From: Actinomycetota bacterium
Lineage (GTDB): Bacteria; Actinomycetota; Actinomycetes; Actinomycetales; Microbacteriaceae
Assembly (NCBI GenBank): GCA_009702455.1
Contig: WLIA01000004.1
Location: 1-63,759 of the forward strand
DNA length: 63,759 nt
Reading direction: 5' to 3'
The notes beneath the pieces were generated by a model. It was not told the DNA's origin and ran no database searches. It was given only the letters and a program-made list of their open reading frames with translations. The translations under genes were made by a program, and so were the position numbers. Shown in pieces: positions 986-4,362 of this stretch (position 1 is its first letter; each line of letters begins with the position of its first letter).

Positions 986-1711
986 ATGACCATCAGAATT
1001 GACGGCCGTGCGGCAGACCAACTGCGCGAGGTAACGATCGAACGCGGGTGGAGCGAACACGCAGAAGGCTCAGCGCTGATTTCATTTGGGTCAACCAAAG
1101 TTCTTTGCACAGCCTCATTCACACCTGGCGTTCCGCGTTGGAAAGTTGGCAAGGGCGAGGGTTGGGTTACGGCCGAGTATGCGATGCTTCCGCGAGCAAC
1201 TCACGATCGCAACGATCGCGAAGCCGTCAAAGGAAAAGTTGGCGGAAGAACCCACGAAATTTCGCGACTAATTGGCCGTTCGCTGAGAGCTATCATCGAC
1301 GTTCGCGAACTCGGCGAAAACACAATCGTTATCGACTGTGATGTTCTTCAGGCTGACGGCGGCACGCGCACGGCGGCGATTACTGGAGCATATATTGCGC
1401 TTCACGACGCAATTGAGTGGGCGAGAGCCCACAAGCATATTCCGGCAAAGTCAAAGCCCCTTATTGATAGCGTTGCCGCGGTTTCGGTGGGAATCATCGA
1501 CCAGGTTGCCCTGCTCGATCTTGCCTACACCGAAGACGTTCGCGCCGAAACCGACATGAACGTTGTTGTTACCGGTTCTGGAAAGTTTGTTGAAGTTCAA
1601 GGCACTGCAGAAGGTGCACCTTTCGATCGCGATGAGTTGAACATCCTGCTTGATCTAGCGCTCAAGGGCACGGCCTCGCTAACTCAAATTCAGAAAAACG
1701 CACTGGCCTAG
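986..1711 (+). CDS. rph: Ribonuclease PH
   Basis: A 241-residue phosphate-dependent 3'-5' exoribonuclease that trims tRNA 3' ends. It carries the family signatures [15 protein letters not shown] and [15 protein letters not shown] in the first half, and [16 protein letters not shown], which holds active-site acidic residues, near residue 115. Length is typical. An AGAGAGG ribosome-binding site precedes the ATG, and the gap to murI is 10 bp, so it is translated from the murI message. The murI-rph-rdgB order is common in actinobacteria. Confidence 0.97.
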
Positions 1712-1718
1712 CAAGAGC

Positions 1719-2300
1719 ATGAAGCTCGTTCTCGCGTCGCACAACAAGGGCAAATTACAAGAACTTGCCGAAATTCTTGAGCCTGCTGTTGCCGACCTCG
1801 AATTGGTGAGCTACGACGGGCCAGAGCCGGTTGAAGACGGCACGAGTTTTCTCGAGAACGCACTTATCAAGGCCCGCGCAGCTTTTGCACACACGGGCTT
1901 GCCCTCGATTGCAGACGACAGCGGAATCGCGGTCGAGATTCTCGGTGGTTCACCCGGCATTTTCACCGCAATCTGGGCTGGTGGTCGCGACAATGCAGCC
2001 AATCGTCAGTTGTTGCTCGCTCAGTTGCGCGACATCGGAGATGAAAATCGTACCGCGGCATTTATCTGCACAATCGCTATGGTCAGCGAAGCTGGCGAAC
2101 AGAGTTTCACGGGAGTTTGGTCCGGCAGGGTAGCGCGCGAAGAGCGGGGGAGTTTCGGGCACGGCTACGACCCGATATTCATTCCAGACGGTTTCGAAAT
2201 CACGGCGGCCGAAATGCCGCCAGAGGTCAAGAACTCAATGAGTCATCGAGCGATGGCACTGCAACAACTAATTGCCACTCTCGCGACGGGCCTTGATTAG
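1719..2300 (+). CDS. rdgB: XTP/dITP pyrophosphatase (HAM1 family)
   Basis: A 193-residue nucleotide house-cleaning enzyme that hydrolyses dITP, XTP and ITP to monophosphates, keeping deaminated purines out of DNA and RNA. It shows the N-terminal SHNKGKLQEL substrate motif, GTSFLENALIKA, the DDSG motif in IADDSGIAVEILGG, GHGYDPIF and the C-terminal SHR. It is the last gene of the murI-rph-rdgB unit. Its final 33 bp overlap the end of the convergent dedA gene, and I see no terminator there. Confidence 0.95.
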   Translation: MKLVLASHNKGKLQELAEILEPAVADLELVSYDGPEPVEDGTSFLENALIKARAAFAHTGLPSIADDSGIAVEILGGSPGIFTAIWAGGRDNAANRQLLLAQLRDIGDENRTAAFICTIAMVSEAGEQSFTGVWSGRVAREERGSFGHGYDPIFIPDGFEITAAEMPPEVKNSMSHRAMALQQLIATLATGLD

Positions 2301-2903
2301 TTCGGTAATAATCGGAATCGTCGTGATGATCAAAAACGCGGCTGTCACGACCACTGCGTTCTCACGAACGAATGGAATCTGACCCAACCCTGCACCAACA
2401 AGCGTGACGCCGGTTGCCCAGCAGGTAACTCCAATGAAGTTGTACTTCAGGTAGCGGCGGTAAGGCATCTTGCCAACCCCAGCCGCAACCGGAACAAAGG
2501 TTCTCATAACCGGCACGAAGTGGGCGAAAATAATCGCCTTTGGGCCAAAGCGGTCGAAGAACTTTTTGGTGCGCTCAACATTTCGGTGATTGAAGAACTT
2601 GGAGTCTGGGCGCTTGAAAATTGCTGGGCCGGCTTTTCGGCCAATCCAGTATCCGGTTTGGTCGCCCAACCAACCAGACGCTGTGAACGCTAGGCAGGCG
2701 AGCCAAAGTGGAAAGTCGAGAATGCCGGTAGCCATCATGAGGCCCATCGGAAAAAGAATGCTGTCGCCCGGCAAGAAGAAACCGAATAGCAAGCCTGTCT
2801 CGGCAAACAGAATTCCGCAGACAATCAAGACGGAGAGCGGGCCCACATCGGTGACGACCGATGTAATCCATTCTTGGGCGTTGAGTAGTTCGGTTAAGTT
2901 CAC
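2268..2903 (-). CDS. DedA family membrane protein
   Basis: A 211-residue integral membrane protein of the DedA/SNARE-associated (PF09335) family, which is linked to membrane lipid homeostasis and envelope stress. The hallmark FAETGLLFGFFLPGDS stretch starts near residue 34, followed by GYWIGRKAGPAIF and a conserved Arg/Gly region, FVPVMRTFVPVAAGVGKM. Several hydrophobic segments span the protein. The GTG start at 2903 fits the family N-terminus, but it lies one base after the last nucleotide of tRNA-Arg, leaving no room for a promoter or ribosome-binding site. The message probably comes from read-through of the tRNA transcript. The 3' end overlaps rdgB by 33 bp. Confidence 0.93.
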   Translation of the reverse strand: MNLTELLNAQEWITSVVTDVGPLSVLIVCGILFAETGLLFGFFLPGDSILFPMGLMMATGILDFPLWLACLAFTASGWLGDQTGYWIGRKAGPAIFKRPDSKFFNHRNVERTKKFFDRFGPKAIIFAHFVPVMRTFVPVAAGVGKMPYRRYLKYNFIGVTCWATGVTLVGAGLGQIPFVRENAVVVTAAFLIITTIPIITELIKARRESGN

Positions 2904-2904
2904 G

Positions 2905-2976
2905 TGCCCCCAGCAGGAATCGAACCTGCGCTTCCGCCTCCGGAGAGCGGCGCTCTATCCCCTGAGCTATGGGGGC
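2905..2976 (-). tRNA. tRNA-Arg (anticodon CCG)
   Basis: A complete cloverleaf reads on the minus strand. The acceptor stem GCCCCCA pairs with TGGGGGC, and the discriminator base is A. The D arm is GCTC...GAGC, the anticodon loop CTCCGGA contains CCG, and the T arm is GCAGG-TTCGATT-CCTGC. CCA is not encoded; the next bases are C and then the GTG of dedA. A tRNA-Arg just upstream of argS is a conserved actinobacterial arrangement. Boundaries were set by pairing the arms by eye. Confidence 0.95.
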
Positions 2977-2991
2977 CAAGGGTTCACTCAA

Positions 2992-2997
2992 AGTATA
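2992..2997 (-). promoter_or_regulatory. Candidate -10 element for tRNA-Arg (and dedA)
   Basis: TATACT on the minus strand lies 15 nt upstream of the tRNA 5' end, so transcription would start about 9 nt before the mature tRNA. It overlaps TATGCT on the plus strand, which may serve the divergent lipoprotein gene. No strong -35 is seen. Confidence 0.4.
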
Positions 2998-3057
2998 TGC
3001 TGTATGTAGTTGGGGATTGCACTTGTTCAGGTTGAGCCACATGGAATCGAGAGTCTG

Positions 3058-4362
3058 TTGCGTTTACTTCGGTTTATAACTGCTTCAGTTTTTTTGGCTG
3101 TGTCTGTGCAATTACTCACCGCGTGCTCACCTGGATTGGACGCGGGCGACAAGGTAGTTCGAGTGTATGCACCTTTTTTTGATGCTTCGGCTGATGCCTT
3201 CAAGCGCGAACTCAGTTTGGTTTCGGCGAGAACCGGAATACAGGTTGTCTTAGAGACACCCTCGAATCTGAACGATCAGATTGATTCTGACATCAAAGCT
3301 AACTCCTTACCCGACATCGTGATTTGGGATAACCCACGAGATCTGTTGAACCACTCCGACAAACTTGTTGCGCTTGAACAACTCGTGAATGTTGCTTCAA
3401 TAAAAGACACCCTGATCTCAGGTTGGGCAGAAGTCGCCAGCCAAGGCGAGAAGACGTTTGGGTTGCCGGTATCGAGCAATATAAAGACGGGCAATAAGTC
3501 TCTGGTTTTTTACAGCCCAAAGGCCTTTGAAAGAAATGGCTATGCAGTGCCAACCAACGGCCAAGAGCTTCTAGCGCTGACCGAACAAATCAAAAAAGAC
3601 AAATCTGGCTATCCGTGGTGTGCAGGAATTGAGTCTGGTGGCGCAACCGGTTGGCCAGCGACAGACTGGCTCGAACAATACGTTCTCGAGCAGGCAGGCC
3701 AATCGGTCTACAACCAATGGATTTCGGGCAAGGTAAGTTTCGATTCGCAAGAAGTTTCGAGTGCTGCTTCGACAGTAAGCGAATTACTTCTCAGCGAAGG
3801 TTCTGTCTACGGCGGCGGCGTTCAAATGTCAAAAACATCATTTGGCGAAACTACCCCACTGTTTAGCGACGGCGGATTGTCAAGCGGGCAATGTTTTATG
3901 TTCAAGCAGGGTTCGTTCCTCACGGATTTTTTCCCAACCGAAATCCAGGCTGAAGTGTTGAGTGGAAACTTTGAATCTGTCAACGCATTTGCTTTGCCAC
4001 CTCTAAAAGATTCCAAGAGGGTGGTGATTGGTGACGGTTTCATCGCATCTGCGTTTGTCAAAGACTCCGATGTCTCTGAGGTTCTGAGATTTGTTTTGAG
4101 TGACCAATTCGGCATGGAGATGGTCAAGTCAGTACCGTTCCTTTCGCCGCACAAAACCTTCGATGTAGATGCGTATCCTGCAGGGTTTGCCCGACTGGTT
4201 GGCAGGGCTACAGCTGAGGCTGACCTCTTTGGGTTTGATGCTTCAACGGCGATGCCCCGCCAGGTAAACGAACAATTTTGGATTGCTGTTGCTAGTTGGA
4301 TCAGGGGCGAAAGTTCCTGGCCCGACGCTGCACAAGCCATAGATGCTTCTTACCCTCGATAG
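3058..4362 (+). CDS. ABC-type carbohydrate-binding lipoprotein, orphan
   Basis: An extracellular family 1 solute-binding protein of about 434 residues, the kind that delivers oligosaccharides to an ABC importer. From a TTG at 3058 the product begins [19 protein letters not shown] followed by the lipobox LTAC (C23), a good lipoprotein signal. The open frame extends upstream to a TTG at 3010, giving an unusually long N-region, so I prefer 3058, although its ribosome-binding site is weak. The segment with [11 protein letters not shown] and [11 protein letters not shown] is typical of alpha-glucoside/maltose-type binding proteins. No permease or ATPase gene is adjacent, so the partner must lie elsewhere. 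The ligand is unknown. Confidence 0.85.

Follow-up and report, generated by a model that had tools for sequence, protein, structure and literature searches.

In the tRNA-mRNA operons of E. coli, such as tufB, the mRNA has a leader with a Shine-Dalgarno (SD) sequence. The creation of a leaderless mRNA by a cut at a tRNA is textbook knowledge in mitochondria, where it is known as tRNA punctuation after the Ojala/Montoya model, which is cited in PMC4633059. Leaderless mRNAs have been described in Actinobacteria, and mycobacteria need no more than a 5'-terminal ATG or GTG to translate such an mRNA, TTG and CTG being insufficient (PMC4633059). Propionibacterium (Cutibacterium) acnes was reported to be without tRNase Z, and dRNA-seq placed the cut in CCA-encoding tRNAs "always between the Cs", that is after C74, which the authors ascribed to an endonuclease; this was shown for CCA-encoding tRNAs and the same endonuclease was only suggested for CCA-less tRNAs (PMC3848588). 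Most CCA tRNAs of S. coelicolor were cut likewise, between the Cs (PMC4681348). No case of a leaderless mRNA made by tRNA processing in bacteria was found in the open-access literature searched.

The locus described here lies within a stretch of 63,759 nucleotides that was analysed as a whole and is called the window below. Its genome (G000) fell within Rhodoluna, in a group that includes a Rhodoluna limnophila assembly, and the nearest named contig was from Rhodoluna sp. at 77% identity.

The tRNA-Arg/dedA junction in the window

On the minus strand of the window the body of a tRNA-Arg(CCG) gene (2976-2905) was followed by a single C (2904) and then by the GTG start codon of dedA (2903-2901), the 3' end of the tRNA reading TGGGGGC (2912-2906), A2905 and C2904. 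ARAGORN called the tRNA at 2904-2976 with C2904 counted inside it, A2905 as discriminator and acceptor pairs 7/7, while Rfam (RF00005) placed the tRNA body at 2905-2976 with 67.5 bits. A full CCA was absent from the gene, only one C being encoded after the discriminator, and there was no room for a leader between the tRNA and the dedA start. Direct reading and both programs therefore bore out the initial annotation, which had placed the GTG of dedA one base after the discriminator of a tRNA lacking an encoded CCA.

The dedA gene (2268-2903, minus strand) encodes a membrane protein of 211 aa with a DedA/VTT domain (Pfam PF09335, E 6e-18, 65.9 bits against a cut-off of 33.9), which also matched NCBIfam PRK10847 (E 5e-43) under the curated cut-off of that profile. 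The GTG at 2903-2901 is the first start codon of the frame and the predicted 5' end of the mRNA. A wrong start was ruled out, as relatives with an SD shared both the codon and the N-terminus MFGI(D/E)WL and as variation in codons 2-12 was mostly at third positions; the earlier view that this start had not been mis-called thus stood. Downstream, the convergent rdgB gene (Ham1 family; 1719-2300, plus strand) had 33 nt in common with the 3' end of dedA and served as a spacing control. A gene for RNase PH, a tRNA 3' trimming enzyme, is located two genes off (986-1711, plus strand) and is convergent with the tRNA-dedA unit.

The base at position 74 was tallied in the tRNA genes of the window's genome (loci L266-L295) and of a complete Rhodoluna relative, G154 (loci L142-L208), which was also used for genome-wide counts of leaderless genes and SD sequences. 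A C was present in 31/31 and 40/40 tRNA genes respectively, together 71/71, and in 31/32 tRNAs of another member of the Microbacteriaceae (G001); most tRNA genes of G154 were without the full CCA despite the encoded C74. Since every tRNA checked in the two Rhodoluna genomes carried C74, C2904 belongs to the tRNA, whose encoded end the dedA start directly adjoins, and the possibility that C2904 is a base specific to dedA was ruled out. The tally suggests that the tRNA 3' boundary in Microbacteriaceae is C74.

Conservation, exceptions and recurrence of the register

The dedA neighbourhood was compared in 53 of 67 Rhodoluna genomes, all with this dedA behind tRNA-Arg, where DedA identity to the window copy ranged from 46.7% (about 47) to 100%. 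The exact arrangement of C followed by ATG or GTG (RTG) without a leader was kept in 49/53 genomes, or 46/50 distinct junctions, and position 74 was a C in 50/50. Start codons at the 46 flush junctions were ATG (28) and GTG (18), and TTG was never used (0). On the tree the start codon had changed 7 times and the discriminator N73 12 times, and the N-terminal codons varied, some lineages having gained or lost codons behind the start (VNINDILHP and VNISTLINDILHP) with the start unmoved. The distance from dedA to rdgB took 28 values from -42 to +417, so that with a constant register on the tRNA side and a variable spacing on the other, the conserved thing is the register and not the neighbourhood.

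The initial annotation had proposed comparing the junction in related Microbacteriaceae, and the result, together with the 49 Rhodoluna genomes above, was that a tRNA-Arg/RTG junction occurred in 0/387 sampled genomes of other genera in the family. The C+RTG junction in Rhodoluna is beyond chance. That the tRNA and this type of DedA have been linked since ancient times was rejected, no such linkage being seen in relatives outside Rhodoluna. In four Rhodoluna genomes dedA was missing (G199, G200, G205 and G213) and the tRNA faced rdgB directly, an arrangement also present in related genera (L007).

The four exceptions grouped in a single clade (support 98) surrounded by flush forms, corresponding to one change of state. 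Their spacers between tRNA and dedA were 24 nt (G206), 111 nt (G010), 25 nt (G217) and 43 nt (G256), and in 4/4 an AGGAG preceded an ATG that opened the same N-terminus. The dedA gene was therefore found in two states only in Rhodoluna, flush without an SD or spaced with one, which confirms its start codon. At 3 nt from the ATG, the AGGAG sits closer than the usual 4-8 nt of G154 and may therefore be a weak SD in these genomes. Within the 111-nt spacer of G010 (L057) the 3' end of the tRNA occurs once more (GGTTCGATTCCTGCTAGGGGCGC), which would be a duplication or integration scar separating dedA from the tRNA.

A family-wide pattern search for G73-C74-RTG, followed by reading of matched loci, identified the same register at other genes. 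One case was tRNA-Gln(TTG)|C74|RTG-glmU, with the GlmU start exactly flush at 25 loci, one per genome, in four genera (g2, g33, g79 and g85; L322, L326-L333, L345-L348, L351-L355 and L357-L363). The matched tRNA-Gln string was also present in further genera and in L336, L344 and L350 stood ahead of other ORFs, while in G154 and G000 glmU was located about 26 nt from tRNA-Gln and had an SD. An NAD synthase gene, nadE, followed tRNA-Arg(TCT)|C74 with an ATG (L343:682-1503, minus strand). In three species of genus g5 (L337-L339) tRNA-Ser(TGA)|C74|ATG was followed by different genes, encoding an MSMEG_4193-family phosphomutase (L338) or NIPSNAP-like ORFs. The identities of nadE and glmU were taken from full proteins, Pfam searches of N-terminal fragments of 40-45 aa being mostly uninformative. 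Both glmU and nadE are generally regarded as essential, and the flush arrangement of tRNA and start codon is, by these sequence comparisons, recurrent and includes such genes.

At L341 (1524-2345, plus strand) nadE was preceded by only the 3' half of tRNA-Arg(TCT), where ARAGORN found no tRNA, and this half is perhaps the scar of an integrated element. When the search was extended to the class, the majority of matches outside Microbacteriaceae had no real gene downstream. A tRNA-Asn(GTT)|C74|ATG junction ahead of a short ACT-domain ORF (L374) came from another actinobacterial family, in genomes of small size (1.2 Mb), and the pattern was also matched in G673 and G699.

It is conceivable, if unlikely, that genome compaction pushed the dedA start against the tRNA and trapped it there, with the register playing no role in making the mRNA. 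In its favour, Rhodoluna has small genomes (about 1.3 Mb) with overlaps between neighbours, as in the -33 spacing of dedA and rdgB. Against this, the far side of dedA varied freely, insertions on the tRNA side did survive but only along with an SD, and the same register was present at other tRNAs in genomes of 3-4 Mb. Compaction would also leave dedA to be translated without a leader or an SD, for which there is no known route without a cut.

We consider it improbable that the 3' strand of the acceptor stem (GGGG or GGGGG) acts as an SD, with initiation on the uncut tRNA-dedA RNA. This G-run ends 3 nt before the start, as far as the AGGAG is from the ATG in the four exceptions, and its duplex with the anti-SD (-5.6 to -8.4 kcal/mol), taken on its own, is about as stable as that of the true AGGAG. 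However, the strand is base-paired within the tRNA, the same G-run was present in tRNA-Arg of relatives without dedA (L007), and a 3-nt spacing is rare in G154. The other junctions differ in this respect, as the tRNA-Gln junctions (GGCGGAGC|ATG) had a GGAG just 1 nt from the start and the tRNA-Ser(TGA) junctions (CCCTCCGC|ATG) lacked a G-run, a point against an SD role of the acceptor strand.

Promoters, probable leaderless translation and the probable cutting enzyme

A probable -10 box (TATACT, 2992-2997, minus strand) is located upstream of the tRNA, with the predicted transcription start of the tRNA-Arg/dedA unit near 2985 on the same strand, and a TANNNT box began 18-21 nt before the tRNA in 50/50 distinct Rhodoluna loci. 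A sigma-70 consensus scan of 2100-3200 returned no promoter, as expected where promoters are of the TANNNT type. A gene for a solute-binding, lipoprotein-like protein (SBP_bac_1; 3010-4362, plus strand) is divergent from the tRNA-Arg promoter, and its listed TTG start at 3010 is about 13 nt from the -10 box of the tRNA, the true start being probably later.

In G154 the TANNNT motif was in excess at -12 and -13 of SD-less ATG or GTG codons (163 + 74 against about 21 per position), and by this count Rhodoluna probably has about 190-195 promoter-made leaderless genes. Rhodoluna ribosomes thus appear to translate leaderless mRNAs routinely, and the DNA of the dedA junction fits the leaderless layout with no leader, no SD and an ATG or GTG but never a TTG. 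Common as leaderless genes are by the G154 count, a promoter within the tRNA gene that starts a leaderless dedA transcript at the GTG is very improbable, as 46/46 flush dedA and 25/25 glmU junctions were free of TANNNT at 9-17 nt ahead of the start and as tRNA function constrains the sequence there. A -10 box at the 7-nt distance from the start was present in 0/46 junctions, which indicates that dedA is not of the ordinary promoter-made leaderless type. With no TANNNT at the leaderless position inside the tRNA and a box upstream in every locus, the data point to one promoter and to a dedA 5' end that is processed and not primary.

The initial annotation had named an RNase Z type of cut directly after the discriminator, which would leave dedA with a one-base leader (C). 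This is the standard bacterial route for CCA-less tRNAs, but it is highly improbable here, as RNase Z (TIGR02651) passed the family cut-off, or was matched in full or short form, in 0/67 Rhodoluna genomes while it was detected in 14/14 control genomes. The best Rhodoluna matches (<=27 bits) were partial and fell on longer ORFs of the metallo-beta-lactamase type, RNase J for example. Full or short forms elsewhere in the phylum scored 40-314 bits. Among 90 Microbacteriaceae the full form was present in one and the short form in about ten, most being without either. Curated profiles were used since our own HMMs of actinobacterial RNase Z were contaminated by antisense ORFs from GC-rich genomes. 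In Rhodoluna and most of the 90 Microbacteriaceae tRNA 3' maturation must consequently rely on another enzyme. By analogy, the cutter in Rhodoluna is probably an endonuclease of the type seen in P. acnes, which is likewise without RNase Z (PMC3848588). Since C2904 is C74 of the tRNA and the known actinobacterial cut falls after C74 (PMC3848588, PMC4681348), the expected leader has zero bases and not one, so that neither the enzyme nor the leader length first put forward was upheld.

Proposed maturation route and known systems

We regard it as likely that 3' maturation of the tRNA in a tRNA-Arg-dedA transcript yields a leaderless dedA mRNA, with the start codon kept in register by selection. 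From the sequence comparisons we infer co-transcription, tRNA-Arg(CCG) and dedA forming a single unit driven by the tRNA promoter. The 5' end of the tRNA would be trimmed by RNase P and an endonuclease would cut on the 3' side exactly after C74, leaving N73-C74 on the tRNA, which would be completed by the CCA-adding enzyme. The second product would be a dedA mRNA with a 5' monophosphate and the start codon as its first bases, to be translated as leaderless, and selection would keep a start codon at the very end made by the C74 cut aligned with C74. Expression of dedA would then depend on tRNA maturation.

This is the best-supported reading. The outline of the initial annotation, that maturing the tRNA sets free a dedA mRNA without a leader, probably holds, given the genus-wide register, the SD-bearing exceptions and the recurrence at glmU and nadE, and it is the enzyme and the leader length that required revision. 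Points against the tRNA cut include the one clade without the arrangement and the several species without dedA at the locus. In addition, 3' ends made by exonucleases only, following a cut inside dedA, would yield no leaderless mRNA.

A wider reading, which we put forward tentatively as somewhat short of an even prospect, is that an after-C74 endonuclease replaces RNase Z across Microbacteriaceae and that several genes, glmU and nadE included, evolved flush starts, with tRNA maturation making their leaderless mRNAs and tying their supply to maturation. If true, leaderless mRNAs would have a second origin in tRNA maturation, to which a membrane protein and the essential enzymes GlmU and NadE would be tied. 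This would also give a reason why such starts may be misplaced by gene finders, and would offer a genetic handle on the nuclease that generates tRNA 3' ends in those actinobacteria that have no RNase Z.

Compared with E. coli operons of the tufB type, dedA is alike in having a tRNA and an mRNA on one predicted transcript and unlike in lacking a leader with an SD. Actinobacterial leaderless mRNAs resemble it in their 5'-terminal ATG or GTG and missing SD (PMC4633059; PMC8079986), but those known are primary transcripts with the promoter at the start codon (PMC4633059; PMC8079986), whereas the 5' end of dedA would be processed and carry a monophosphate. The after-C74 cleavage of P. acnes and S. 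coelicolor is also from Actinobacteria, matches the junction in cut position and, in P. acnes, likewise occurs without RNase Z (PMC3848588, PMC4681348); it differs in concerning CCA-encoding tRNAs, and in the available parts of those reports the cut was connected with neither a downstream coding gene nor a leaderless product. With mitochondrial tRNA punctuation Rhodoluna would share tRNA excision that sets mRNA 5' ends and an mRNA that starts at or next to the start codon, and the start codon coincided with the tRNA 3' boundary or lay no more than a few nt from it, as in mitochondria, in 46/50 dedA and 25 glmU junctions. Unlike in mitochondria, the Rhodoluna case involves a bacterial chromosome with single tRNA-CDS pairs under their own promoter, no ELAC2/RNase Z was found in it, the boundary comes after an encoded C74 and most genes are expressed otherwise. 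Given that RNase Z was not found and that the cut is deduced, what we propose is a likeness to mitochondrial punctuation rather than membership in it.
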